A stretch of DNA of 41,713 nt from Bacteroidales bacterium (GCA_012522155.1 JAAYKX010000050.1:1-41713); one strand, 5' to 3'; shown: positions 15,013-40,218, numbered from the stretch's first letter. The notes: a model not told the origin generated them from the letters alone. Numbers and translations are program-made.

Positions 15013-15651
15013 ATGGACAAATTTGACATTTTCAGAACCCTTAAATTTCTGCCCGGAATCATTCTTGGCCTTACAGTTCATGAGTTTAGTCATGCATTTG
15101 TTGCTCACAGCTGCGGTGATCCCACTTCGAGAGATCAGGGCAGGGTTTCTCTTAATCCTCTGAAGCATATAGATCCCCTGGGCTTTGTCATGTTGCTTCT
15201 TGTCGGTTTCGGCTGGGCCAAACCGGTGGAATTCAATGAACAGAATCTCCGTAATCCGAGGATCGACACGCTTAAGATAGCTGTTGCCGGACCGCTGTCC
15301 AATGCCCTTTTTGCAATGCTGCTTTCTGTGCTGTTCGTAATTGTGTTCAGGCATTTCAATATCGCCTATTATTCAATAACAACAGAAGTCCTGATCTATG
15401 CAATATACATCAACTGGGGTTTGTTCATCTTTAATCTTCTCCCCGTCCCCCCTCTTGACGGATCACATCTTCTCCTTTCCTTTTTCAGAAAATATCCCGT
15501 GTTTTACAACGGACTGTATAAATACGGAAGCTATTTCTTCCTGGGTCTCATTGCCCTGTCACTGATTTCCGGATTCAACCTCTTTCCCATATGGTCTCTC
15601 GTTCAATTCCTGGGAAACGGCTTCCTTTCACTTGTGGGATTCAATATATAA
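15013..15651 (+). CDS. Site-2 protease family (M50) membrane metalloprotease
   Basis: HEFSHAFVAHSCGD zinc motif, NPLKHIDPLG, LLPVPPLDGSHLL; multiple TM segments. Confidence 0.92.
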   Translation: MDKFDIFRTLKFLPGIILGLTVHEFSHAFVAHSCGDPTSRDQGRVSLNPLKHIDPLGFVMLLLVGFGWAKPVEFNEQNLRNPRIDTLKIAVAGPLSNALFAMLLSVLFVIVFRHFNIAYYSITTEVLIYAIYINWGLFIFNLLPVPPLDGSHLLLSFFRKYPVFYNGLYKYGSYFFLGLIALSLISGFNLFPIWSLVQFLGNGFLSLVGFNI

Positions 15652-20428: not shown

Positions 20429-21853
20429 ATGAAAAAAATTCTGCAGATCACCGCGCTGCTGTTCTTATCGGCTTACACATATTGCCTGGATAACAAGGGC
20501 TACGAAATAAAGGTAACAATCTCTGATATAAATGATTCAACAGTTTTCCTTGCATATCACTTTGGTGACAGGCAATATCTTACGGATACTTTAAAACTCG
20601 ACGCTGAAGGATACGGAGTCTTTGCCGGAAAAGAAAAGCTGCCCGAAGGTATTTATATGATAGTGCTTCCCGGCAATAAATATTTTGAATTTCTGATGAC
20701 TGAGAACCAGCATTTTTCCCTCTCCTGCACCAGTAATGATTTCTTCCGTACCCTGAAATTTTCCGGATCACCGCTCAATACAGCCTTCACGGACTACCAG
20801 AAACAATGGACGCAGATGCAGAAAAATGCTTCACTCATTAACAACAGGCTTCAGTTAAACAAATCCAATCCCGACTCACTGCGCATACTTTCACAGAAAC
20901 AACGGGAATATGAGTCAGGGATGAAGGCATACCTGAGAAGTGTCATTGACAAAAACAAGTCAAACTTCCTGGGTGTTCTCGTGAAATCGATGCTCCCGCT
21001 GGAAATTCCTGAATTCACCATTCCTGCCGGAACACATAACCCGGATTCTGTCAGATGGAATCTCAGATACAATTATAACAAAGATCATTTTTTCGACAAT
21101 ATTGACCTGTCGGACGAAAGACTGCTGAGGACCCCTATCCTTCAGACAAGGCTCGAGACTTTTTTTAGAAATGTCATTATCCAATCGCCCGATTCAATAA
21201 ACAAGGAAATAGACAGGATTTTTCCAAAGACCGGCGGTAATCCAAAACTGTTTCAGTTCCTCTCGGTCTATTTGTTCAATCATTTCCGGCAAAGTGAAAT
21301 AATGGGTCATGATGCTGTACTGGTAAAGCTTGCCGATGATATTTATCTTTCAGGAAAAGCAGACTGGATCACTGAGGAATTCAGAAATGATCTTCACCGA
21401 CAGGTGGAGTTGTTAAGACACAATCTTTTGGGTATGAAAGGACAAAATCTTGTGATGGATTCATACAGGGGAATATTTGTTGCCCTTCATGATATAGAAA
21501 AGGAATTTACTGTTTTATATTTCTGGGAGCCCAACTGCGGTCACTGTAATGAAGCAACACCAAAACTGAAGGAATGGTATGAGAAGGCTAAAAATGACGG
21601 TGTTGAGATTTTTTCGGTTTGTACTACAGGCAACAGACAGGAATGGACAAACTATATTGAAAAACACGGTCTTACCTGGATTAACGGATGGGATCCCGAC
21701 CGGCATACTCATTTTGACTATTATTATAATGTTCAGGCCACCCCAATGGTTTACATACTGGACAAGGATAAAAAGATAATAGCCAAAAAGTTGTCAATAG
21801 ACGATATACCTTCATTCATCGACAATTACAGGCAGTACTTCAGACAGCAGTAA
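20429..21853 (+). CDS. TlpA-like thioredoxin-fold protein with DUF4369-like N-terminus
   Basis: Signal peptide; C-terminal VLYFWEPNCGHCNEATPKLKEWYEKAKNDGVEIFSV and ATPMVYILDKDKKI. Confidence 0.88.
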   Translation: MKKILQITALLFLSAYTYCLDNKGYEIKVTISDINDSTVFLAYHFGDRQYLTDTLKLDAEGYGVFAGKEKLPEGIYMIVLPGNKYFEFLMTENQHFSLSCTSNDFFRTLKFSGSPLNTAFTDYQKQWTQMQKNASLINNRLQLNKSNPDSLRILSQKQREYESGMKAYLRSVIDKNKSNFLGVLVKSMLPLEIPEFTIPAGTHNPDSVRWNLRYNYNKDHFFDNIDLSDERLLRTPILQTRLETFFRNVIIQSPDSINKEIDRIFPKTGGNPKLFQFLSVYLFNHFRQSEIMGHDAVLVKLADDIYLSGKADWITEEFRNDLHRQVELLRHNLLGMKGQNLVMDSYRGIFVALHDIEKEFTVLYFWEPNCGHCNEATPKLKEWYEKAKNDGVEIFSVCTTGNRQEWTNYIEKHGLTWINGWDPDRHTHFDYYYNVQATPMVYILDKDKKIIAKKLSIDDIPSFIDNYRQYFRQQ

Positions 21854-22859
21854 TATTATTTTGTCTGAGTATTTTTATCAGCTCATACAGGCTTCTGAAG
21901 TTCTGTACTTTTTTATCCTTTACAATGGACCATCCCCTGCCTCCTTCCCTTACTTCAACATAGGGCTGCGTTTTTTTTGAGGAGATAGCGAAACCATTCC
22001 TTTTCAAGGCCCTGATGGTCCAGTTTTTCTGCCTCCCCGCAGCACCTTCAAGATATACTTCACCCCTGTAAGGCGGACTGAATCCAAAACTTCCGTCTTC
22101 CGGATCAAACCCGGTACGTTCGGAATCAAAGAGGCATTCAAAACTGTCAGCCAGCCAAAGATCTTCAGGAGCGCCTTCCTTTATGTCCGTGTCAGTAACA
22201 AGCCATATTTTATCGGCATTACTGACTGCAATATTAAAATCATGAGTGGAGAACACAATTGTCTTGCCGGATACAGTAAGTTCCTTCATCAGTTTGAGAA
22301 CCCCGAACTATCCCGATATGTCAAGAAAAGCCAGGGGCTCATCCATTATCATAATATCAGTATCCTGGGCAAGTACTCTGGCTATCATAGCCCTTTGCCG
22401 TTCTCCGTCCGAAAGCCCGGAAATAAGTCTGTCTGAAAAATTTGCGAGTCCTGCCTTGTGTATCGAATTATCAATAATTTCTGAGGCGCTGCGGTCAATC
22501 CTGCCGGTCCAGTCTGTATGGGGAAAACGTCCGAGTGCAACCAGATCATACACTCGCATATGGCTCACTTTAATTGTCTCAGTTGATACATACCCGACAT
22601 TCCTGGCAAGTTTCATTCTGGAATAGTGCCTGCTGTCTTCATTTCGTATCATCACTGAACCGCCGATTTTTTTCTGCAGACCGGTAATTGTTCTGAGAAG
22701 CGTACTTTTCCCGATACCATTACGGCCAAGAACCGCAACCAGTTCCCCTTTTCCGGCAGAGGCATCCAGGGGCGGCAGTATAGGTATTTTCTTCCTGCCA
22801 TGAAAATAGCCGATAAGCAAAGAGTTTACGGATAATATTTCCCTGATATCTTTTTCCAT
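21840..22859 (-). pseudogene. btuD: BtuD-like ABC transporter ATP-binding protein interrupted by an in-frame TAG (22308-22310)
   Basis: ORFs 22859-22308 and 22289-21840 share a frame: GRNGIGKST, SGLSDGERQRAMIARVLAQDTDIMIMDEPLAFLDISG-*-FGVLKLMKELTVSGKTIVFSTHD. Confidence 0.8.
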
Positions 22860-26780: not shown

Positions 26781-28751
26781 TTATCGTTTAGGCGGTTTAT
26801 ATCCTTTCTGCTTTGAAGCCTGTTCAAGTCGTTGTTGCCATTTAGATTTAGGAAGAGGTTTCTTCCTGTTTTCCTCCAGGGTAGCCAATACTTTTTCTCC
26901 GTCAATAAATCTTTTTGACAAAATATTCTGCAGCAAGGTTATTGAATTGGCAAGAAAATAATAATAAGTCAGTCCGGATGAAAAATTATTGAAAATGAAC
27001 AGGAACATTACCGGCATCATGTACATCATTACCTTCATTCCCGGCTGGTCCTGGCCTGAAGTGGTCCCGGACATTCTGGTTGTTACAATGGATGACACTG
27101 TCATAAGCAGGGTCCACAGGCTCACATGGTCACCATACCAGGGAATTTTAAAAGGAAGGTTCAGAATAGAATCGTATGTGGAAAGATCAGTCGCCCACAG
27201 GAATGATTCCTGTCTCAGCTCTATGGAAACAGGGAAGAACCTGAACATTGCAAACAGTATGGGAAACTGTAAAAGCATTGGCAGACAGCCCCCCATTGGA
27301 TTAACGCCGGCTCTTTTATAGAGATCCATGGTAGCCTGCTGCTTTTTCATTGCATCTTCCTGTTTGGGATATTTTTTTGCCAGTTCATCCACCAGGGGCT
27401 TAAGGACTTTCATCTTGGCAGTTGACTGGTATGATTTGAATGTCAGCGGATAGAGAACTACTTTTATTAATATTGTAAGAATAAGAATGATAATGCCGTA
27501 GCTGCTGATATATCTTTCAAGCCAGTTGAAAACCGGAATAATAACAAACCTGTTGATCCATCCGACTATGTTCTTGCCTACAAATATTATCTTAACCAGG
27601 TCATAGCCTTCTTTTCGTAATGTCGAAATATGATTCGGACCATAATAAAATTTCAGGGCAATGTTTGTTTCCGGACTGTTTTCAATGGGGATTCCCAATT
27701 CGGAAGTATAGTAACGGATATATTTTTCAGATGTAAGGGTTTTTGCAGATGTTATGGAACCGCTGAGAAAATAATCATCCGTAATAAGCACAGATTAAAA
27801 AAACTGATCAACATAGGCCACCCAGCTCAGTCTGGTGGTAATGTCAACCTTTTCTATTTCCTTGTTTGATCTCAGCCTCAATCCGTCGACATCATCCTGA
27901 TAGTATTTGTACCTGATGGTGGAATACATATCCTCATTCTGTCTTCCTTTTTCCTGCTGAGGCACATACATTCTCCAGTCAAGTTCAATATTATTCTGGT
28001 TTTCAGGAAGAATACCATGCATGTTTTTAAATGTAACATCATAATCCACGCTGTTCTTTCCCGGTGCAAGTGTATACTTATATTCAATATAGCTTTCATC
28101 GTCTGCAGCCAGTCTGAGGACTACGCTAAGCGGTTCCCTGTCTACCCGGTAATGCCTGTTTTGGGAAAGCGGGGTAAAATAGAGGTTATTTGTCTGTACA
28201 GCCTTGTTGTCGGAAGTAAAAAAATTGAATCCGAATACAGTTGAATCACCTGAGAAGAGAATGAGAGGTCTGGAATCATGAGTTGTAAAATCTTTAACCC
28301 TTGCGGAATAGACCCTGCCCCCTTTAAGTGAGATCCTGAGATCTATTTTGTCGTTTTCAAGTGTAATATAATCATCCTCTCCAGCCGCCGATCCTGCAAA
28401 TACACCATATTGCCCGGGGTCTGCCGCGGGCACTGCGCCCGGAACTGTTTGTGGTACTGCTTCGGGTTCAGCAATTGCACTGTCTGCAGGGATTTCTGTA
28501 ATCCCGGGTATTGTGCCGAGTTTCAGGTTCAGTTCACTGATCTTTTCGAGCACATCCGGATGATTGGGTTTGAAACGAAGTGCATTGACATATTCTGTCC
28601 TGGCCCTTTCGAAATTTCCCTTATTATATTCAGCCTCCGCCGTAGTTAATGCTTTTTCAAATTCCTTATTGAGCCGGTTGTTATTATAAAGACTGAAACC
28701 TATAAAGATCAAGAAGATCAGTACCAGTCCTGTAATAGTATTTTTGTCCAT
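26781..28751 (-). CDS. yidC: YidC membrane protein insertase, interrupted by an in-frame TAA (27795-27797)
   Basis: N-part MDKNTITGLVLIFLIFIGFSLYNNN...WVAYVDQFF, then TAA, then SVLITDDYFLSGS...YGIIILILTILIKVVLYPLTFKSYQSTAKMKVLKPLV...GGCLPMLLQFPILFAMFRFFP, all in one frame. Confidence 0.88.
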
Positions 28752-28902: not shown

Positions 28903-31185
28903 TTAGCGGTTATAGTCATCAAATCCTGACTGGTCAATCATTTTGACTTTTTCCTCAAGGATTTTGATCATCTTTTTTGCACTGTCGATCTTTTCTCTTA
29001 CCTCAGAGATCAATGTTTCGGCATTGGGTGACTTGGTAAAAAACCCGATATTGTTTTCCCAGAGTACTATGTCATTTTCCAGCTGCTTGATTTTTGTAAA
29101 GAATTTATCACGCTCATTTCTTATTTTTCTTGACGCTTTGGGATTTGCTTTAAGATTTTCCAGTCTGGAACTGAACCTGAGAATACTCTTGTCTTCATCT
29201 CCGATCTTCAGTCTGTCAAACTCCTTGTTCAGGGCAATACGATATTTGTTTATAATCTCATCCTTCCTGTTAAAGGGAACAAATCCTATTTCAGTCCATC
29301 TCCGCTGAATACCCTTAAGTCTTTCGAAAGCCTCTTGTACGTCCGTTCCTGCCTCAAATTCCTCAAGTTCCTGAATCAATGCCAGTTTGGCTTTAAGATT
29401 ATCTTCATATGATGAGTCCAGCTCACTAAAAAACTCCGCTTTACTGTCAAAGAAATGATCACAGGCCTTCCTGAATCTTTTCCAGACTTTTTCGGATTGT
29501 TTTCTGGGAACGGGACCAATTTCCTTCCAGTTTTTCTGAAGTCTTATAAGGGCATCCGTGGTTGCCTTCCAGTCGGTACTGTCCTGCAATGCCTCTGCCT
29601 GAAGACATAAATCAATTTTAAGCTGAAGATTATTCTGTTGTACTTCCTTATTATCGGCATAGAAACTCCTTTTCTTGTCGAAAAAGCTGTCACAGGCATC
29701 CCTGAATCTCTGGTATACTTTATTGTTTTGTTTTTTGGGCGCAAATCCGATTGTTCTCCACATTTTCTGCAGAGCAATTACTTTTTCAGCCTTTTCGTCA
29801 AACTCCCTGAAATTCGTAATTTCAAGAAGGTTTATTTCTTCCACTTCCTCACACAGGGCTATCTTTGCTTCCAGGTTTTTGCGCTGTGCATCCTTCTGTT
29901 TTTCAAAATATTCGTGATGCCGTTTATTGATTTGTGATGTGGCCTCCCTGAAGCGTTCCCATATTTCATTTTTCACTTCATTGGGAACAGGGCCTATTTC
30001 ACGCCACTGATTATGATATTCCTGCAGAACACGAAAGGCATTTACCGGATTTGGTTCAAGAAGAAGCTCTTCGGCCTTTTCACACAACTGCACTTTGGCT
30101 TCCAGGTTCCTTTTAAGATCAAGGTCACGTAACTCTTTATTGATTTTTATATAATCATAAAAGATTTCCACGTTGTGGTGATAATTTTCCCAAAGATGCT
30201 TGACAGCATTTTGCGGAACCACACCAACCGAATGCCACTCACCCTGGAGCAGCCTGAATTCATTAAAAGTTTTATTGATTGATTCCTCACGGTTGACAAG
30301 TTCTTTTATCTTGTCAATTATCTCATATTTTTTCTTGAGGTTTTCATATTTTTCAGCTTCCTGTACTTTGTTGAAATCAGTCTTCTTTTGCCTGTATTTG
30401 TCAAGAAGATGCTTGACCCTTGCTTCAAGAGGATCAACCCATGACCGGTAATCCTCAAGAGTGCCGCCGCCTTCCAGAAATTTATTCTTCCTTTCTTCGG
30501 CTTCCTGCTTTAACTTTTTATAAAAAAATACCTTTATTCTGTCTACATCATTCCGAATCTCTGATGGTGGCCTGTTATCGATCAGAAGTGCCAGTGTCTC
30601 CACAAGATCATTCTTTGAAAAACCGGAATAATCAACAGGAGGAAGTTCAACATCATCAAGATTTTTGGATTCACCTTCAACTTCCTGTACTGTTTTCCGC
30701 TTCCTTTTTACAGGAATTTTATTCTCTGCAGCCGGCTCACCTTCGGCCGGGGCCTCTGCGACCTGTTCATCTTCAACCGGGGGCTCTGCAATCTGCTCAT
30801 CCTCAGCCGGGGTCTCTGCAGCCGGTTCACCCTCAGCCGGTTCTTCTGTGGCCGATTCCTCTTCAGCCGGGGGCTCTGCAATCTGCTCATCCTCAGCCGG
30901 GGTCTCTGCAGCCGGTTCTTCTGTGGCCGATTCCTCTTCAGCCTGCTCTCCTTCAGCCGGTTCCTCTTCAGCCGCTGCCTCCGCAGCATGCTCTCCTTCA
31001 GCCGGTTCTTTTTCAGCCTGTTCACTCTCTGTTTTTTCCTTCTCCGGCTGATCCTTCTGATTATCTGTAATACTGGCTTCCGGGATTTCCTCACCACTTA
31101 TATTTCTCTCAGTTCCGGCGGCATCTTCAGTTGCCCCGGATTGTTCATTACGAACAGAGTCTTCCGGATCTTTCTCTATTATCAT
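28903..31185 (-). CDS. DUF349 domain-containing protein with repetitive E/A/P-rich N-terminus
   Basis: Multiple DUF349-like repeats (W..IG.VP....) and a long acidic low-complexity N-terminal segment. Confidence 0.9.
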   Translation of the reverse strand: MIIEKDPEDSVRNEQSGATEDAAGTERNISGEEIPEASITDNQKDQPEKEKTESEQAEKEPAEGEHAAEAAAEEEPAEGEQAEEESATEEPAAETPAEDEQIAEPPAEEESATEEPAEGEPAAETPAEDEQIAEPPVEDEQVAEAPAEGEPAAENKIPVKRKRKTVQEVEGESKNLDDVELPPVDYSGFSKNDLVETLALLIDNRPPSEIRNDVDRIKVFFYKKLKQEAEERKNKFLEGGGTLEDYRSWVDPLEARVKHLLDKYRQKKTDFNKVQEAEKYENLKKKYEIIDKIKELVNREESINKTFNEFRLLQGEWHSVGVVPQNAVKHLWENYHHNVEIFYDYIKINKELRDLDLKRNLEAKVQLCEKAEELLLEPNPVNAFRVLQEYHNQWREIGPVPNEVKNEIWERFREATSQINKRHHEYFEKQKDAQRKNLEAKIALCEEVEEINLLEITNFREFDEKAEKVIALQKMWRTIGFAPKKQNNKVYQRFRDACDSFFDKKRSFYADNKEVQQNNLQLKIDLCLQAEALQDSTDWKATTDALIRLQKNWKEIGPVPRKQSEKVWKRFRKACDHFFDSKAEFFSELDSSYEDNLKAKLALIQELEEFEAGTDVQEAFERLKGIQRRWTEIGFVPFNRKDEIINKYRIALNKEFDRLKIGDEDKSILRFSSRLENLKANPKASRKIRNERDKFFTKIKQLENDIVLWENNIGFFTKSPNAETLISEVREKIDSAKKMIKILEEKVKMIDQSGFDDYNR
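30717..31025 (-). repeat. 15-bp-periodic coding tandem repeat (EPAEE-type) with a larger recent duplication
   Basis: Repeated GCCGGTTC/GCCGGGGT 15-mers; a near-identical block begins at 30777 and again at 30867. Confidence 0.85.
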
Positions 31186-31641: not shown

Positions 31642-32931
31642 TCAAAGTCTGTTTTTCGCGGCAAGATGCCGTAAGGGGTTAACCACCTTTTGCAGAAGTC
31701 TCAGGCTGTCCGTCATTATCTCGGCAGTTCCCTGCATGTTCTGAGTAAATTCAAGTTCCCTGCCATAAAGAGTTTTCAATCCTTCAGGCAGAATTATCTC
31801 AATTATGTAGGCATCCCCGGACGGGACAAGTGATTTGGATTCCACAACCCCACGCACCATTCCGTATTCAAGATAGGGGTATCCGGCAAGTTTGATATTT
31901 ACCGCCTGACCGGGTCTTACTTTTCCCGATCTGTACATTTTGAGGTCAACCCTTCCTATAAAGTTTCCCGGGTTAAGGGGAACGACAGTCAAAACAGGCT
32001 CATCCCTTGCCACCATCTGATTCTGTTTCCAGAATCTTGTAAAAGTTACAATACCGTCTATCGGAGATATGATAAGATAGGTGTTTTCCCAAATTCTTAT
32101 CTGTGCTTTAAGATTATTAAGGGATTCTGTCAGGGATGAAAACAATCTTTCTCTTTCTTCAGTCATTTTAATCCTGTAATCCTGCAGCTCCTGGTTTTTC
32201 CGGGCAAGTTCAAGGCTTTTGGCTGCATGGTCAAGTCTGACATCCTGAAGTTCAATATTAATTTTGTTGAAGGTCTGGCGTGAGATATCAAATTCGCTTT
32301 CTGAAAACACAGCTCCTGCAAAAAGGGATGAATCCCTGGTGAACTTTTTTGCCTCAATACGCTGGTTTTCGACATAAAAACCCTCCTTTTCCTTTACTCT
32401 TCTGATATATTCCTCCAGTCCGGATATTTCCCTTATAACCGAAGAAATCTTATATCCGTAAAAATCATTTTTTACATAGTTTTCATAATCAGACAGGTTC
32501 TTAAGAAAAGTACCCCAGTATTCCTGTATCTCACCAAGTTCAGAAAATGATGGAAGGGATCCGGCTGAAACTGATCCGGGATCCTGTATTTCCTCAATAC
32601 TCTCCCTCAGTTTCCTCACCTGATCAATTGATGCAGCTGTTTCCATCACGGCGAGCAGGCGCCCTGTATGAACCGTTTCACCATCGGTGACATACCAGTT
32701 TAAAATACGTCCGCTTATTTTTGACACCAGGGTAACCGGAGGATTTTCTGTGGTAATCTGTACAGATGACGGCACCACGTTCGGATAACGGATGATCCAT
32801 GCAAAAACCAGGATAATCAGTATTACTGCAGAAATTGCGGCTGTTCCCCACCTTACAAGTCTTCCCGGCGGACTTGAAATAATTTCACGCACAGGTTCGG
32901 AATGCAGTATTTCCGTTTTACTTTTTTTCAT
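31642..32931 (-). CDS. HlyD-family periplasmic adaptor of a peptide exporter
   Basis: One N-terminal TM, coiled-coil, SKISGRILNWYVTDGETVHTGRLLAVME and SPIDGIVTFTRFWKQNQMVARDEPVLTVVP lipoyl/barrel halves; 9 bp downstream of the C39 ABC gene. Confidence 0.9.
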   Translation of the reverse strand: MKKSKTEILHSEPVREIISSPPGRLVRWGTAAISAVILIILVFAWIIRYPNVVPSSVQITTENPPVTLVSKISGRILNWYVTDGETVHTGRLLAVMETAASIDQVRKLRESIEEIQDPGSVSAGSLPSFSELGEIQEYWGTFLKNLSDYENYVKNDFYGYKISSVIREISGLEEYIRRVKEKEGFYVENQRIEAKKFTRDSSLFAGAVFSESEFDISRQTFNKINIELQDVRLDHAAKSLELARKNQELQDYRIKMTEERERLFSSLTESLNNLKAQIRIWENTYLIISPIDGIVTFTRFWKQNQMVARDEPVLTVVPLNPGNFIGRVDLKMYRSGKVRPGQAVNIKLAGYPYLEYGMVRGVVESKSLVPSGDAYIIEIILPEGLKTLYGRELEFTQNMQGTAEIMTDSLRLLQKVVNPLRHLAAKNRL

Positions 32932-32940
32932 TTCATCAGA

Positions 32941-35127
32941 TCAATTTCCAAGTTCAAGCTGATTTTTAACAAGATTAAAATAAGCACCTTTCTGTTCTAT
33001 GAGCGAATCGTGATTTCCGGTTTCCACTATCCTTCCCTTATCCAGGACAACAATTTTATCCGCATTCCTGACAGTGCTGAGCCTGTGTGCAACAATCAGC
33101 ACAGTCTTTTTTCTTAAATATTCTGCAAGATTTTCAACAATGGCTTTTTCATTATTGGTATCAAGGGAGTTGGTCGCTTCATCGAATATCAGTATATCCG
33201 GATCCTTATACAAAACGCGGGCAATAAGTATTCTCTGCTTCTGTCCTTCACTCAGGCCATGCCCGTTTGCACCGATTTTTGTATTATAGCCCAATGGAAG
33301 TAATTCAATAAATTCCCTGATATTTGCCATTTCAACAGCCCTGAAAAGCCTTTCATCATCAATTTCTGAATTCCCCGGGGAAATATTTGATGCGATGGAT
33401 TCCGGAAAAATAAAACCATCCTGCATAACGGCCCCGGTTTTTTCTCTCCAGAGTCTGAGACTGAGATTTGACAGCCTGGTGTCACCCACAAGGATTTCTC
33501 CGCTGACAGGATTGTAAAATCCAAGGATCAGCTTGAGCAGGGTTGTTTTTCCACTGCCGCTGGTCCCCACAACAGCAGTTGTTTTATTTTCGCCGATGAC
33601 AAGGTCTATATCCTTTAATACAAAAGGTGAATGCGGACCTTCATACTGAAATGACAAATTATTGATTATTATGTCTTTCCTTTCAGGAAGCCTGTGAATC
33701 TTTGATTCAGGATCAGCTTCTTCCTCTTCCATTCCGTGAACTTCGGCAAGCCTGTTCAGGCTCATTCCCGCATCCTGTGTTATCCGAAAAAATCCAATGA
33801 TCTGATTCAGAGGCACATTGAGCTGGCCTATGATGAACTGGACAGCAAGCATCATACCAAGGGTCATACTGCCTTTCAGAACTGCTGTTGCTGAAACGAC
33901 AGTAATCAGGAGATTGGTTACCTCATTTAGAAAAGTTCCACCCGCTGTCTGATACTGAAGCAGTCCCAGTCCTTTTGATTTCAGTGTAAAGAGGGAAGCC
34001 TGCAGGTTTTCCCAGTCCCAGCGTTTAAGCGATTCGCTCTGGGTAAGTTTTATTTCCTGCATTCCGTTTACAATATTTATTAGTTTGCTGTTGGCAACTG
34101 ACATCTCGCGGAACCTCTCATGGTCAAGCCTTGCTCTTGATTTCATAAATACAGATACCCAAAGCACATACAACACTGATCCGGTAAGAAAAAGCGCCAG
34201 TATTTTCATACTGTATACTGCAAGAACAATACTGAACACAATGATGTTGAAAAAGGAAAACATTATACTCAGGCTGGTGGAAGTAAGAAAATTTTCAATC
34301 CTGTTGTTATCGTCAATCCTCTGAAGAATATCACCGGTAAGTTTAGTATCGAAGAATGCAATTGGCAGGGACATCAGTTTCTGCAGAAAGCCGGAAATTA
34401 TTGACACATTGACACGGGCTCCGATATGAAGAAGCAGCCATCCCCTGATAAATTCCACTGACATACGGCCGATTACGAGAGCCAGCTGTGCGAACAGTAT
34501 CAGGTATATAAAGCCCAGGTCGCTGTTATTGAGACCAGTGTCAATTATTGCCTGTGTAAGGAAGGGAATAATAAGCTGTATTACGCTGCCAATAAGCAGT
34601 CCAAGCATCAGCTGGCCAAAATATTTCTTATAGAGGTTAAAATATCTTGCAAGGAATCTGAAACCATGAACGGGTTCAGGTTCATTTTCCTTTTCCAGCA
34701 ACTCGGGCGTAGGTTCAAGGATCAGCACCAGTCCTGCCGGTTTTCCGTCCTCCAGGGTACTGGCCCATTTTTTTATAAATTCCTCCCTGTCCACGGAGAT
34801 AAGACCAACGGCAGGGTCAGCTATCAGAATTTTCTTTTTCCTGATCCTGTACACTACAACAAAATGTTTCTGTCTCCAGTGTACTATACAGGGCAGGGGA
34901 ACCTTATCAGCAAGCATGTCAAAAGGGACTTTAACTCCTATAGTCCTGAATCCCAGACTACCCGCAGCCTCAGACAAGCCAAGGAAAGATACTCCTTCCC
35001 GTGTTATATAGCATTTCCGCCGGATTGATTCAAGATTGAAACTTTTCTTGTAATAAGATGCTACCATTTTAAGGCAGGCAGGCCCACAGTCCATCGCATC
35101 TGGCTGTCTTACAAAAGGAAATGACAT
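32941..35127 (-). CDS. C39 peptidase-domain ABC exporter (double-glycine peptide processing and export)
   Basis: N-terminal C39 FVRQPDAMDCGPACLKMVASYY and VHWRQKHFVVVY...IADP; ABC TM domain; NBD VGTSGSGKTTLL, LSEGQKQRILIARVLYKDPDILIFDEATNSLD. Confidence 0.95.
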   Translation of the reverse strand: MSFPFVRQPDAMDCGPACLKMVASYYKKSFNLESIRRKCYITREGVSFLGLSEAAGSLGFRTIGVKVPFDMLADKVPLPCIVHWRQKHFVVVYRIRKKKILIADPAVGLISVDREEFIKKWASTLEDGKPAGLVLILEPTPELLEKENEPEPVHGFRFLARYFNLYKKYFGQLMLGLLIGSVIQLIIPFLTQAIIDTGLNNSDLGFIYLILFAQLALVIGRMSVEFIRGWLLLHIGARVNVSIISGFLQKLMSLPIAFFDTKLTGDILQRIDDNNRIENFLTSTSLSIMFSFFNIIVFSIVLAVYSMKILALFLTGSVLYVLWVSVFMKSRARLDHERFREMSVANSKLINIVNGMQEIKLTQSESLKRWDWENLQASLFTLKSKGLGLLQYQTAGGTFLNEVTNLLITVVSATAVLKGSMTLGMMLAVQFIIGQLNVPLNQIIGFFRITQDAGMSLNRLAEVHGMEEEEADPESKIHRLPERKDIIINNLSFQYEGPHSPFVLKDIDLVIGENKTTAVVGTSGSGKTTLLKLILGFYNPVSGEILVGDTRLSNLSLRLWREKTGAVMQDGFIFPESIASNISPGNSEIDDERLFRAVEMANIREFIELLPLGYNTKIGANGHGLSEGQKQRILIARVLYKDPDILIFDEATNSLDTNNEKAIVENLAEYLRKKTVLIVAHRLSTVRNADKIVVLDKGRIVETGNHDSLIEQKGAYFNLVKNQLELGN

Positions 35128-35248: not shown

Positions 35249-35848
35249 TTGTTTTTCAATTCAGATTTACCAGAATTGTTTAAGAGGATAACAGATTCAA
35301 AGATCATTGCAGGCGTTAAGGCTCAGGATGATAATATTCTAGAATGGATTTATGACAATTATTATCAAACTGTAAAAAACCACATAATTAAAAACAGCGG
35401 TTCACCGGATGATGTACCTGATATTTTTCAGGATACCATCATTATCCTGTACAAACAAATTACTGCTGATTCCCTCACACTGACCTCCGATCTCAAAGCT
35501 TACTTTTTTGGAATAGCCCGTAATTTATGGAATGCCAGGCTCAGGCAAAAGAGCAGAATGACCGGAATTGAGCCACGATTCGACCTGGCAGATGAATCAG
35601 ATTCAGAAGATAATGAAAATCTTATGTTTGAGCGGATCATGAGCAGGGCATTCTATAAACTGAAGCCTGATTGCCAGACCATACTGACCTTACATTCTGA
35701 GGGTTTTACTTATCAGGAGATTACCGAAAAAATGCAGCTGAAGAATGAGGTGTATGCACGGAGAAAGAAATATTTATGCAAGGAAGCACTTCTTGAACTT
35801 GTAAAGGCAGATTCTGAATATCAGGAATATTTACGCTTCCTGAAATAA
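35249..35848 (+). CDS. ECF-type sigma-70 family RNA polymerase sigma factor
   Basis: YQTVKNHIIKNSGSPDDVPDIFQDTIIILYKQ (sigma2-like), LKPDCQTILTLHSEGFTYQEITEKMQLKNEVYARRKKYLCKEALL (sigma4-like). Start codon uncertain (TTG). Confidence 0.85.
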   Translation: MFFNSDLPELFKRITDSKIIAGVKAQDDNILEWIYDNYYQTVKNHIIKNSGSPDDVPDIFQDTIIILYKQITADSLTLTSDLKAYFFGIARNLWNARLRQKSRMTGIEPRFDLADESDSEDNENLMFERIMSRAFYKLKPDCQTILTLHSEGFTYQEITEKMQLKNEVYARRKKYLCKEALLELVKADSEYQEYLRFLK

Positions 35849-38800
35849 AATGTCAAAGCAGTCGCTGACAGTACAGTCAAAATAAGTATTATTGCTATTA
35901 ATCTGACGGGCGGGTATATAGGGGAGTTATCTCCGTAAACGATCAGTGTCGCCCAGAAATATGGATGAGATTTGAGTTGTGTGGCATTTTTAAGATAGGC
36001 AGTCCGTGATTTTCTCAGTGATTTGCTTTTTGTATGACCTTTTTTAAGATTTTCATAAAACCTGCTTACTATTTCAGTTCCTGATTTATCCTCAATTTCC
36101 CACATGGACATTACCACGGACCGGCTTCCGGAATAAAGGAATCCCCTTGCAAGGCTAAGGATGCCTTCACCTGATGACAAAACACCGGTTCCGGTATTAC
36201 AGGAACTCAGCACCACCATTTTTGACCTGAGAGGTATTCCGTAAATTTCTGAGGTATACAGCAGACCATCTTCCGGACTGTCGTTAGCCTGCGAAAAGAT
36301 CATGGCTGAATTCATGGGGTATTGATCGTTAAGAAGAGTATGCATTGCAAGGTGAACAATATTGTAATTCAGTGCCTCTTTTTTAAAAACTGATTCTTTA
36401 GCCTTTTCATTCAAAAAAAGCTTACCCCGGGAAATTGAAGCAACAAATTCTGCTTCCTGGCGTGCATAGGGCAGATCATAGAGATAACCCCTCCCCTGCT
36501 GGTTATGTAAAAACAGCGAATCGAGATTTATGTCAGTTCCGTAAAAGGGTGCAAAGGCTGCCAGTGAATTTTTTTCCGGAAGATTTCTGGTACCGATCTC
36601 CTTCATCAAAGTTGCCGAATAAGCATATGAAATGTCAAAGTCATTCATCAGGTAATCCAGTTTCCTGTAAAGTATTCCTTCTCCCTTATATTTTGAAGAC
36701 AGTATCGTTTCGAAAGGAAGATATGACAGGTAATTGTCGGGGGATATAAGCAGATTCCGGGATATGAAATACTTGCGTACAGGTTCAACAAGCATTTTGT
36801 AAAGGTCTGTTCCGGCTTCCTGGTAATTTCTGAAAGCACTCCCTGCATCCTTGGCGAGGGCCGGATTTGAAAGCAAATCCCTGAATTCGCCGAGAGTTTT
36901 AAACAGCATTGAATCAATTCTGCATGAAACCAGCTCCCTGTGCCTGCTGTTGACAACAAAAATATAAAGCAGGGAATCCGCAACAATATAACTGACGTAA
37001 TTAATTTTTTTTCCAACAATTGACGGTATTTCTTTCATCAACGGAGCGACTGTATTGTATTTAAGTGCGAAATATTCAGGATAATATTTCTCAAAAGTCA
37101 GAATCAGTGAATCACGTGCCCTTATTGCTACAAGTATCTTTTCATTCCATTCTGCAAGAAGAATTTTGTTTGGCTTTGCTTTTCCCTTTTCCAGTGAGAT
37201 TTTCGAGTTAAGCATTCCTATTTCCCGTTGAAGGGATTGTTCATAATCCGCAATTTCAGGAGGAATATGCAACTGTATTGCATTCAGTTCGCGTGTTGTC
37301 GCAAGCAAACCAGCCACCTTGCTTTTTTCTGCAATCTGAAAGGTTTTTTCAAGGTAGGAAGGGTCCTGGCTCAGCCTGTAACATAATTCTGAATCCCTTA
37401 TTGCCATCAGGTAGGATTTTCTGTAATGGTCACCCAGCACAATTCTGCTCTCCTCTTCACTGATATTCAATCTTATTTTGTCAACAGCATCAATGATATG
37501 ATGCGAGGTGGCCGCTACCGCCCTTAATATCCCGATGTCCTGTGTTTGTGAAAAAATATCCGTCAGTATCTCATATTTTGAACGAAGTATCCTTACATAC
37601 CGCCTGTCAGCCTGTACCGAATCAATCACGGGATTTGCGAGCGAACCTGGTGACTGCCCGGCTTTAGAGCCATAAAAAAGAAGTTCCTGGATTTTTGCAA
37701 GTGCTTCCCTGCTCTGACCATTATAATGTAAGGCCCTGGCATATCCTTCATAGACCGGGTCCCGCAGATTGGCATCCTCAGGATGTCTTGAAAGATAATC
37801 ATTGCAAACGGAGAAATGCTTTATTGCAGCCGCAGCATCATTCCTGTAGTTAAGCAAATATGCAGCATAATTCTTTAAGGCCTCTATATAATATCTGGAA
37901 TCCGTACCATAATAACTCCCCGACCTTTCCAGCAACTCAGTCAGAAGTGATTCGCCTTTTCGGATGTTGCCTGCATTTGCCAGAGCTATCGCATAGGTAT
38001 GTATCATGTTGAAGGAATGAATGGAGTTATCCTTTACCGCAAGCTCTATCCCCTTCCTGAAATATTCTTCCTCCTTTTCATTCATACCGAGATATCCGTA
38101 ATTTATAGCCATGCTGTTGATCAGTGTAATATAATTCTGATCCATTTCCATGTCATTCTTTTCCCAGACCGATTCAGCCTGTTCAAAATAAATCATTGCC
38201 TTTGCACAGTCTCCCATTCTTGCATATCCCGCTCCTATACTGCTATACAGATCACAGAGTTCTCTTTCCTGAAAAGCTTTCAGTATCCCCAGTGCCCTGT
38301 CAGTATATTCAATAAAACTTTTATAATCATTGTTCAGAATTGATGTGCCGATAAGTGTTGCGTAGGCTGAAGCAACATCGGGACTGTCCGCACCATAATA
38401 TTCAACTGATATTTCTATATAACGGGTCAGGTATCTTTTGACCATTGTATAATTTCCCAGATAATTATGTGCCACTCCAAGGTTGAAAAGAGCTTTAAGA
38501 TACTGATTATCTGCAATATTCAAACTATCCTTCAAGCGAACTGATTCTGCCAGATGAAAAGCAGCATTTTCGTATCTTGAAGAAAGCAAATTACATACCC
38601 CGGCATAATAGAACAATCCTGCTTCCATAAGCAGATCTGACTGTTTAAGACTGATCAGCTTTTCCAGGGAGTCGGCAAGGGACAGGAGGCCTGCAATATC
38701 TTTCCCTGAACTGAAATAATGAATCCGCTGGCTTATTTTATCGAGGGATCCGGAATTACTGATGCTGGCCTGGTCAAGCAAGGGAGAAATTCCGGGATCA

Positions 38801-38916
38801 TAGGGGACTTCCGGGGAACTGACTGAATTTTCTGATAAAATAAAACAAAGGATACCTGTAAAGATTATAAATCTGATCCTTAAATATCGTTTAACTGACT
38901 TTCTGCGCACCTTCAA
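35821..38916 (-). CDS. TPR-CHAT domain (caspase-like) protein with signal peptide and C-terminal TM
   Basis: N-terminal TPRs; CHAT with catalytic His region NIVHLAMHTLLND and Cys region MVVLSSCNTGTGVLSSGEGILSLARGFLYSGSRSVVMSMWEI; C-terminal TM LIAIILILTVLSATALTFYFRKRKYS. Confidence 0.93.
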   Translation of the reverse strand: MKVRRKSVKRYLRIRFIIFTGILCFILSENSVSSPEVPYDPGISPLLDQASISNSGSLDKISQRIHYFSSGKDIAGLLSLADSLEKLISLKQSDLLMEAGLFYYAGVCNLLSSRYENAAFHLAESVRLKDSLNIADNQYLKALFNLGVAHNYLGNYTMVKRYLTRYIEISVEYYGADSPDVASAYATLIGTSILNNDYKSFIEYTDRALGILKAFQERELCDLYSSIGAGYARMGDCAKAMIYFEQAESVWEKNDMEMDQNYITLINSMAINYGYLGMNEKEEEYFRKGIELAVKDNSIHSFNMIHTYAIALANAGNIRKGESLLTELLERSGSYYGTDSRYYIEALKNYAAYLLNYRNDAAAAIKHFSVCNDYLSRHPEDANLRDPVYEGYARALHYNGQSREALAKIQELLFYGSKAGQSPGSLANPVIDSVQADRRYVRILRSKYEILTDIFSQTQDIGILRAVAATSHHIIDAVDKIRLNISEEESRIVLGDHYRKSYLMAIRDSELCYRLSQDPSYLEKTFQIAEKSKVAGLLATTRELNAIQLHIPPEIADYEQSLQREIGMLNSKISLEKGKAKPNKILLAEWNEKILVAIRARDSLILTFEKYYPEYFALKYNTVAPLMKEIPSIVGKKINYVSYIVADSLLYIFVVNSRHRELVSCRIDSMLFKTLGEFRDLLSNPALAKDAGSAFRNYQEAGTDLYKMLVEPVRKYFISRNLLISPDNYLSYLPFETILSSKYKGEGILYRKLDYLMNDFDISYAYSATLMKEIGTRNLPEKNSLAAFAPFYGTDINLDSLFLHNQQGRGYLYDLPYARQEAEFVASISRGKLFLNEKAKESVFKKEALNYNIVHLAMHTLLNDQYPMNSAMIFSQANDSPEDGLLYTSEIYGIPLRSKMVVLSSCNTGTGVLSSGEGILSLARGFLYSGSRSVVMSMWEIEDKSGTEIVSRFYENLKKGHTKSKSLRKSRTAYLKNATQLKSHPYFWATLIVYGDNSPIYPPVRLIAIILILTVLSATALTFYFRKRKYS

Positions 38917-38937
38917 ACTTAGCTTATAAGTTTTATT

Positions 38938-38962
38938 TTCAAAAATACCTTCTATTTTTGAA
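38938..38962. repeat. Perfect 10-bp inverted repeat in the divergent intergenic region
   Basis: TTCAAAAATA-CCTTC-TATTTTTGAA. Confidence 0.9.
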
Positions 38963-38973
38963 CCGTTAACAAA
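38940..38973 (-). promoter_or_regulatory. Candidate promoter of the TPR-CHAT gene
   Basis: Minus strand TTTG-N22-TATTTTTG (TAnnTTTG); the -7 lies inside the inverted repeat. Spacing is longer than usual. Confidence 0.35.
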
Positions 38974-38993
38974 TATTGATCATAAACCTGAAT

Positions 38994-39024
38994 TTATAAA
39001 GCGCTGTTTTAGTGCGCATTATAA
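38994..39024. repeat. Second imperfect inverted repeat upstream of the GG-leader peptide
   Basis: TTATAA-A-GCGC-TGTTTTAGT-GCGC-A-TTATAA, one A/A mismatch per arm. Confidence 0.8.
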
Positions 39025-39143
39025 ATATCTGCATTTTTTTTTCATAATTTTATGTCACAAAAGCGGTTCAAATGACATGTACTTGCAGAATTAAGAACAA
39101 TTAATTTACGAAAATCAATCAAGAACAAATAAAACTAAAAAAA

Positions 39144-39287
39144 ATGAAAAACCTGAATTCTTCAAAGACGAAAGACATTTTTGCCGGTTATGAACTTACA
39201 ATTGATGAGATGTTCAATATAAGAGGTGGTGACAAAATTAAAAGCGAGCCTATAATTTTACCCCCTTCGCCTCCCATCAAAATCTGA
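39144..39287 (+). CDS. Double-glycine leader precursor peptide (47 aa), not in the ORF track
   Basis: MKNLNSSKTKDIFAGYELTIDEMFNIRGGDKIKSEPIILPPSPPIKI*; leader of the Bacteroidetes GG type (ELTxxEMxNIRGG) in the same locus as a C39 ABC exporter. Confidence 0.85.
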   Translation: MKNLNSSKTKDIFAGYELTIDEMFNIRGGDKIKSEPIILPPSPPIKI

Positions 39288-39300
39288 GATAAAAATACAT

Positions 39301-39324
39301 ACCTGTAACAGGTACAGGTCTTTT
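39301..39324 (+). terminator. Candidate terminator downstream of the precursor peptide
   Basis: ACCTGT-AACAGGT-ACAGGT-CTTTT. Confidence 0.4.
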
Positions 39325-39468
39325 CATACTGTTGTTTTAATTATCCGTCAGGCCGGATGAGTAATTCCTGCCAATGACAGGATAGTACAGACATTGTTAA
39401 AGTACCGCTATAAAACAGCCTGGCATGCTGATTGATGAGATTTATATATAACGAAACTGAATATATCC

Positions 39469-40218
39469 ATGAAAACTATTGACTTTTCCTATTTCATTGA
39501 GCGATTCCTTTCGGGTGAGATGAAAGAGGCTGAAGAAGAGTGGTTTCGGAATGAACTTGGCAGGAATGAAAAACTCCGGCACGAAATTGCTTTGAGACAG
39601 CTCACAAACACAAGCCTTAAGAATCATGATGTATTGCAGCTCAGGAATAAACTGACTGCAATTGCATCAAGGAAAACAGAACAAACACCATCCAAAAAAG
39701 GACGCAGACGCAAGGATCTTACCCGGGCAGCAGTATTTGCCGGTCTGGTTCTTTGCGGGACGCTTGCCTTTCTCAACAACAGGACAATGTCCACCGATGA
39801 GATCTTCGATCATTATTACAAGTTCTATGACATTACCACTCCCCTGCGATCTGCAAATGATGCCGGCAATACGGATTATCTGACAGCCATTGAATATTTC
39901 AATGTGCAGGATTATCACAATGCAGCACATTATTTCAGCAGGGTTCTGAGCAATGACCCCAGGTACATTGAATCGGTTCTGATGACGGGAGTTTCAAAAT
40001 TTGAAGAAGAAAAATACGCCGAGGCAAAATCATCCTTTACAAAAGTCATTGACGACAGGGATAATTTATTCTTTGAGGATGCTCAGTGGTATCTCGCCTT
40101 ATGCTATCTGAAAACATCCGAAAAGGATAAAGCTTTGAACTCACTGAAAGCTGTAAGGAAATCGGGCAGTATTTACAGTAAAAATGCAGGAAAAATTCTG
40201 AAAAAGATAAAGTTGTAG
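39469..40218 (+). CDS. Anti-sigma-like single-TM protein with C-terminal TPRs
   Basis: About 80-aa cytosolic N-terminus, basic KKGRRRKD then TM AAVFAGLVLCGTLAFL, then TPRs (YHNAAHYFSRVLSNDPRYIESVLMTGVSKFEEEKYAEAKSSFTKVI). Confidence 0.75.
   Translation: MKTIDFSYFIERFLSGEMKEAEEEWFRNELGRNEKLRHEIALRQLTNTSLKNHDVLQLRNKLTAIASRKTEQTPSKKGRRRKDLTRAAVFAGLVLCGTLAFLNNRTMSTDEIFDHYYKFYDITTPLRSANDAGNTDYLTAIEYFNVQDYHNAAHYFSRVLSNDPRYIESVLMTGVSKFEEEKYAEAKSSFTKVIDDRDNLFFEDAQWYLALCYLKTSEKDKALNSLKAVRKSGSIYSKNAGKILKKIKL

Follow-up and report, generated by a model that had tools for sequence, protein, structure and literature searches.

The 41,713-nucleotide stretch of Bacteroidales bacterium DNA analysed here (GCA_012522155.1, JAAYKX010000050.1:1-41713; hereafter the window) encodes an extracytoplasmic function (ECF) sigma factor, a CHAT protein with tetratricopeptide repeats (TPRs) and a transmembrane (TM)-TPR protein that probably together form a regulated-proteolysis switch. 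The periplasmic, separase/Csx29-like CHAT protein would be the site-1 protease for the ECF anti-sigma factor, a reading to which we assign a probability of roughly 0.7, and the module is best read as a counterpart of the Craspase-Csx30-sigma cascade that works without CRISPR. Support at the level of sequence comes from gene linkage, topology, an intact catalytic dyad, a conserved residue in the linker of the candidate anti-sigma factor, covariation of that residue with CHAT, and a promoter motif. To our knowledge, few CHAT proteases other than Csx29 have a known substrate. Comparative genomics here names a likely CHAT substrate, its cut site and a specificity partner in cultured genera, which makes the proposal directly testable. 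If it is true, Bacteroidota fire ECF sigma factors by a caspase/separase-like route, and the module hints at the origin of the CRISPR Csx29-Csx30-sigma cascade and links such a cascade to exported peptides.

In the mechanism that we propose, the TM-TPR protein would be a membrane anti-sigma factor whose cytosolic N-terminus holds the ECF factor while its TPRs lie in the periplasm, and the C-terminal helix of the CHAT protein would fix it in the inner membrane and leave both its TPRs and its protease domain in the periplasm. A cue at the CHAT TPRs would lead to a cut in the anti-sigma loop just outside the membrane, most likely between R127 and S128, after which a site-2 protease of the RseP type and cytosolic proteases would free the sigma factor. 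The freed sigma factor would transcribe a double-glycine peptide gene and probably also the anti-sigma gene downstream of it as feedback. Sigma binding, the cut, the site-2 steps, the cue and the reading of the promoter by the ECF factor are the parts that we infer. The same genome encodes an RseP homologue (TIGR00054, E=7e-72), which is weak evidence as this family matches all control genomes.

Linkage and predicted topology of the three partners

CHAT-led searches covered 98 related genomes and a named genome collection, followed by region retrieval and annotation; the first CHAT profile also drew in neighbouring PD40-OmpA proteins, and the key counts use a clean CHAT-domain profile. Among 71 non-redundant CHAT-queried loci from Bacteroidota with at least 3.5 kb of flank per side, 64 carry both an ECF gene and a TPR anti-sigma gene within 5 kb of CHAT. 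The same trio recurs in an anti-sigma-led sample across the phylum, and it is present in 88/103 loci when all samples are pooled, a partly biased figure in that some regions were picked by anti-sigma matches. The earlier note on this DNA had proposed that CHAT cleaves the TM-TPR protein and frees the ECF factor to express peptide and exporter, and had held that homologous loci lacking the three genes together would speak against the idea; the trio does co-occur, and the open reading frames (ORFs) for the ECF factor, the TPR-CHAT protein and the TM-TPR product lie where that note placed them. Relatives with the module include the cultured genera Marinifilum, Labilibaculum, Sunxiuqinia, Ancylomarina, Mangrovibacterium and Maribellus. 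In the genus of the window, the ECF and anti-sigma genes lie on either side of CHAT and the ECF orthologue holds the same position in every complete locus; in other families ECF often sits directly upstream of the anti-sigma gene, with CHAT convergent or nearby. The ECF and CHAT genes of the window are convergent and overlap by 28 bp (35821-35848), as they do in most same-genus loci.

The CHAT protein should face the periplasm because its N-terminus is hydrophobic and a helix at its C-terminal end (residues 1004-1030) precedes a basic tail (FRKRKYS), features that are kept in most relatives. Both hydrophobic segments are present in 116 of 132 complete CHAT relatives; the C-terminal one occurs in 121 of them and is followed by a net positive tail in 116, so that the periplasmic topology claimed in the earlier note is borne out by prediction; the C-terminal TM helix is missing in some CHAT proteins outside the clade of the window protein. 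The AlphaFold model (mean pLDDT 82.6) finds its best PDB match by Foldseek in Csx29 of Craspase (E=6e-14), followed by separase and DdvA, and the CHAT-domain sequence profile matches DdvA, entered as a 'CHAT domain-containing protein' (E=8e-6), and Csx29 chains weakly. His859 and Cys906 are invariant in all 141 aligned CHAT domains and are retained at identities as low as 19%. With the fold and the catalytic His/Cys pair of the CHAT peptidases (PF12770, clan CD), the window protein is a predicted caspase/separase-like protease. Direct membership of the Csx29 family failed: the match to NF041237 scores 14.6 bits, below the cut-off of 300.

In the model of the TM-TPR protein, three helices (residues 6-71) precede a TM helix at about 84-102, a low-confidence loop and TPRs at 135-248. 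Its N-terminus should be cytosolic and its TPRs periplasmic because the N-side flank of the TM helix is more positive than the C-side flank in 137 of 144 relatives, a set that predates the clean profile and holds at least one stray protein; this prediction agrees with the layout that the earlier note had given. The protein thus has, by predicted topology, the RseA-type arrangement of a cytosolic helical N-terminus, one TM helix, a periplasmic domain and an ECF partner gene. In 81 of the same 144 pairs an ECF gene lies no more than 120 bp upstream of the TPR gene on the same strand. The 'anti-sigma factor' model NF052375 matches weakly (E=0.03 for the window protein, E=6.5e-4 for the relative L085), and Pfam shows TPRs alone in nearly all members, with zf-HC2 in one. 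The proposed ECF binding by the N-terminus is drawn from this layout, the operon structure and the weak profile matches. A second ECF/TM-TPR anti-sigma pair, with the linker TRSS, lies on contig C254 of the same genome (L101:4639-6233); its 9.7-kb contig holds no CHAT gene, and related paralogous loci of the genus have CHAT convergent with the anti-sigma gene.

The linker arginine and the weighing of alternatives

Within the loop between the TM helix and the TPRs, an arginine about 25 residues past the membrane (range 18-35), usually followed by Ser or Gly, is conserved in 118 of 133 proteins by strict alignment and in 122 when the alignment may slip by a few residues, with Lys in two more. 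It is among the most conserved TM-TPR residues despite the variable sequence and low model confidence of the loop. Its identity follows that of the residue four positions after the invariant Trp939 in CHAT: we count 127 Asp-Arg pairs, Glu-Met in 11 of 11 Glu-type CHATs and no Glu-Arg pair, in a set that also holds three unalignable anti-sigma proteins. The CHAT residue, D943, is conserved in 137/141 aligned domains and starts a helix (943-958) in the model. Asp-type and Glu-type CHATs both occur within one family, and a tree built with the motif masked, which like the 144-relative counts predates the clean profile, places two Asp/Glu switches on well-supported branches and three on the best tree, each with a linker change. 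These data are consistent with a link between D943 and R127, claimed here as covariation rather than as proven contact, and the CHAT cut of the anti-sigma protein would most likely fall at R127|S128. Cleavage of the TM-TPR protein by CHAT, the core of the earlier proposal, is thus favoured by linkage, by a near-invariant juxtamembrane arginine and by its covariation with a CHAT residue, with the cut itself a matter of prediction. Loci of one family with Glu-type CHATs and Met-type linkers (L290-L293, L320, L321, L323 and L324) form a ready-made set on which protease specificity could be tested; a search near G291 for Glu-type CHATs at E<=1e-90 returned G291 alone, and a looser search near G390 gave more.

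Several observations weigh against this reading. One is the anti-sigma protein of L260, whose linker Arg persists in a genome that gave no Pfam CHAT match; of the other three genomes with anti-sigma matches and no Pfam CHAT match, L234 and L261 have linkers without Arg and the L262 region yielded no confirmed anti-sigma gene. The locus L100 has an Asp-Met pair, L233 looks similar by eye and was not so scored by the automatic rule, and L232 has Asn at the CHAT Trp+4 position with a linker Met seen by eye only. The independent switches are few; as a result formal significance is out of reach and a sign test cannot attain it. Separase reads a P1 Arg via D2151, whose equivalent in Sb-Csx29 is K670 (PMC9729208). 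The separase residue seems to sit at Trp+6 and not at Trp+4, and the Csx29 alignment suggests a two-residue offset, which weakens D943 as its exact equivalent and places D943 near it, perhaps at a different position. Finally, the exporter genes are without the promoter motif described below.

Alternatively, CHAT could be a ligand-sensing scaffold that attaches to the anti-sigma factor at its juxtamembrane Arg motif and shifts the conformation of that protein without a cut, and the TPRs in both proteins, a conserved motif that could serve docking, and DdvA (8rot/8rw5), which is titled a transmembrane anti-sigma factor and itself has a CHAT domain, would suit such a role. If CHAT were a scaffold alone, some lineages should have lost the catalytic His/Cys, yet both are kept down to 19% identity, and the residues after the linker Arg or Met are small and P1'-like (S, G, A, D), so we regard this alternative as unlikely. 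In another view the main target of CHAT would be the exported peptide, which it would process or degrade, and the ECF/anti-sigma pair would be a neighbouring stress regulator of this peptide locus left uncut by CHAT. This view draws on the peptide gene that adjoins CHAT in many loci: of 95 cases outside genus-type loci, 28 have an ORF with a double-glycine leader beside CHAT, compared with 16 among 1044 control windows. Many loci with the triad are without a recognisable peptide or exporter, the conserved and covarying residue sits in the anti-sigma protein and not in the peptide, and none of the mature peptides listed has Arg-Ser or Arg-Gly after its double glycine, which together make a peptide substrate a poor bet. 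If the TPR protein had a structural or envelope role and belonged to the locus by position alone, the weak anti-sigma matches and the TPR-only Pfam results would be accommodated; this is very improbable given tight ECF-TPR operons in many families, long-range co-inheritance and a predicted cytosolic helical N-terminus with a TM helix.

The peptide, its promoter and other features of the window

The output of the regulated-proteolysis switch may be read from an ECF-type motif, TGTCACAAA-N13-ACATGTA, that ends 62 nt ahead of the start codon of the peptide gene and has one perfect copy in the 2.7-Mb genome; copies with two mismatches show no excess there over a reversed control. Genomes of relatives each hold roughly one copy, in most cases at this locus and at the peptide gene. 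No motif was found upstream of the exporter ABC, ECF or CHAT genes (44 loci each), and the lack of it ahead of the ABC gene speaks against the exporter as an ECF target. The earlier suggestion that the ECF factor would express peptide and exporter is thus supported for the peptide, whose promoter the ECF factor would read, and not for the exporter. Two relatives (L282 and L287) have a second copy of the motif ahead of an HlyD-type secretion gene elsewhere in the genome.

The predicted mature part of the window peptide is DKIKSEPIILPPSPPIKI, with the tail PPIKI, and its double-glycine leader goes with an adjoining C39 ABC transporter. Across the genus the leader and the C-terminal tail P-P-x-[KR]-[IL] are conserved, and predicted mature peptides are short (14-22 residues), mostly Cys-free and proline-rich; peptides of two relatives score above the cut-off of TIGR01847 (bacteriocin_sig). 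Double-glycine ORFs also lie next to CHAT in Marinifilum, Sunxiuqinia, Ancylomarina, Mangrovibacterium and Maribellus, with lineage-specific tails. Conservation is higher at the C-terminus than in the middle of the peptide, which suggests that a partner recognises this end. Tentatively, the exported peptide or its C-terminal tail could be the ligand of the periplasmic CHAT TPRs, in which case peptide would activate the caspase-like protease, free the ECF factor and bring about more peptide, a self-amplifying Gram-negative circuit of which Craspase would possibly be a recruited relative. A TPR-dominated profile search of the PDB returned generic TPR proteins (kinesin light chain, Rap and NprR), which are no proof of peptide binding. 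Repeated short double-glycine peptide copies, MKNFEVLNTEDLKNIKGGYQDKCINEDILV, occur beside CHAT in Marinifilum flexuosum (L129, upstream of 7629). Three other loci (L242:2837-3279, L247:3019-3443 and L251:9803-10457) have two to three identical tandem genes for small Sec/lipoprotein-like peptides by CHAT, with a tail (e.g. GGNDPKPILNKPKI) that resembles the end of the double-glycine peptide.

The features of the module are collected in Table 1; from left to right its genes run HlyD adaptor, C39 ABC exporter, ECF, CHAT, double-glycine peptide and TM-TPR protein. Elsewhere in the window, a YidC-like gene (26781-28751) lies in two ORFs with an apparent frame break near 27791-27795, either an assembly error or a pseudogene, and the ABC ATPase of an iron-uptake-like operon (21840-22859) is likewise in two ORFs, with a break near 22289-22308. 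The product of 15013-15651 is a small membrane protein that by eye resembles the M50 (site-2 protease) family, and the protein encoded at 28903-31185 begins with a long low-complexity EPAEGE/AEEE repeat.

Table 1. Features of the module and its exporter, with positions in the window.
Feature	Position	Strand	Basis or remark
HlyD-type adaptor of exporter	31642-32931	-	HlyD_3 and TIGR01843 matches
C39-peptidase ABC exporter	32941-35127	-	Peptidase_C39 E=3e-38, ABC domains
ECF sigma factor, 199 amino acids, TTG start	35249-35848	+	Sigma70_r2 E=7e-6 (Pfam), TIGR02937 E=7e-15
Signal peptide-TPR-CHAT-TM protein, 1031 amino acids, predicted periplasmic caspase-like protease	35821-38916	-	Pfam CHAT E=3e-54
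C-terminal TM helix, about residues 1004-1025, before basic tail	35842-35907	-	model helix 1004-1030
CHAT domain, residues 699-996	35929-36822	-	Pfam CHAT E=3e-54; TPRs precede it
Asp943 codon (Trp939+4)	36088-36090	-	covaries with anti-sigma linker residue
Catalytic Cys906 codon (LSSCNTG)	36199-36201	-	141/141 aligned relatives
Catalytic His859 codon (LAMHT)	36340-36342	-	141/141 aligned relatives
ECF-type promoter motif TGTCACAAA-N13-ACATGTA	39053-39081	+	upstream of peptide gene; only perfect copy in own genome
Double-glycine leader peptide, 47 amino acids	39144-39287	+	conserved in relatives
TM-TPR anti-sigma-like protein, 249 amino acids	39469-40218	+	model; near-universal partner of CHAT and ECF
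Arg127 codon, juxtamembrane linker, predicted P1 of CHAT cut (R127|S128)	39847-39849	+	linker conservation

Comparison with known systems

The literature searched, in which subscription journals were thinly covered so that an earlier description is possible, holds no description of the ECF/CHAT/TPR module. Among the nearest precedents is the ECF54 group, for which CHAT genes in the neighbourhood have been noted and proteolysis proposed (review, PMC8999054); the ECF-CHAT linkage is the same, whereas here a TM-TPR anti-sigma protein is the constant partner. The peptide shares the double-glycine leader, C39 exporter and HlyD adaptor of other C39-exported peptides and differs from them in being tied to the ECF/CHAT module, in being proline-rich and in its conserved C-terminus.

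The DegS-RseP-RseA-sigma E and RsiW pathways likewise combine a membrane anti-sigma factor with a periplasmic site-1 cut, predicted in our case, and an RseP protein encoded in the genome. Here, in contrast, the site-1 protease would be a CHAT protein, the anti-sigma factor carries predicted periplasmic TPRs, and the three genes are linked. DdvA (8rot/8rw5), a transmembrane anti-sigma factor that matches both the fold of the TPR-CHAT model and the CHAT sequence profile, holds both functions in one chain rather than in two genes, a likeness drawn from fold, profile and title only.

The closest parallel is Craspase, in which the TPR-CHAT protein Csx29 cuts Csx30, an inhibitor of the ECF-like CASP-sigma (PMC10028731). 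Both systems have a TPR-CHAT protein of like fold, as the best Foldseek match indicates, and a second protein that restrains, or in our case would restrain, an ECF sigma factor. No cas-like gene was recognised among the window genes, with no genome-wide search made for Cas7-11 or CRISPR arrays. Unlike in Craspase, the CHAT protein and the substrate domain are here predicted to be periplasmic and membrane-anchored. The Csx30 sites of Craspases show no conservation, with cleavage following L, M or A (L|D, M|K and A|S; PMC11106740), whereas the linker residue described here is conserved, and where Sb-Csx29 has K670 at the P1-reading position of separase (PMC9729208) the window protein has the acidic D943 near it. 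In operation the module should resemble the sigma arm of Craspase, but its CHAT protein falls outside the Csx29 family by profile score.
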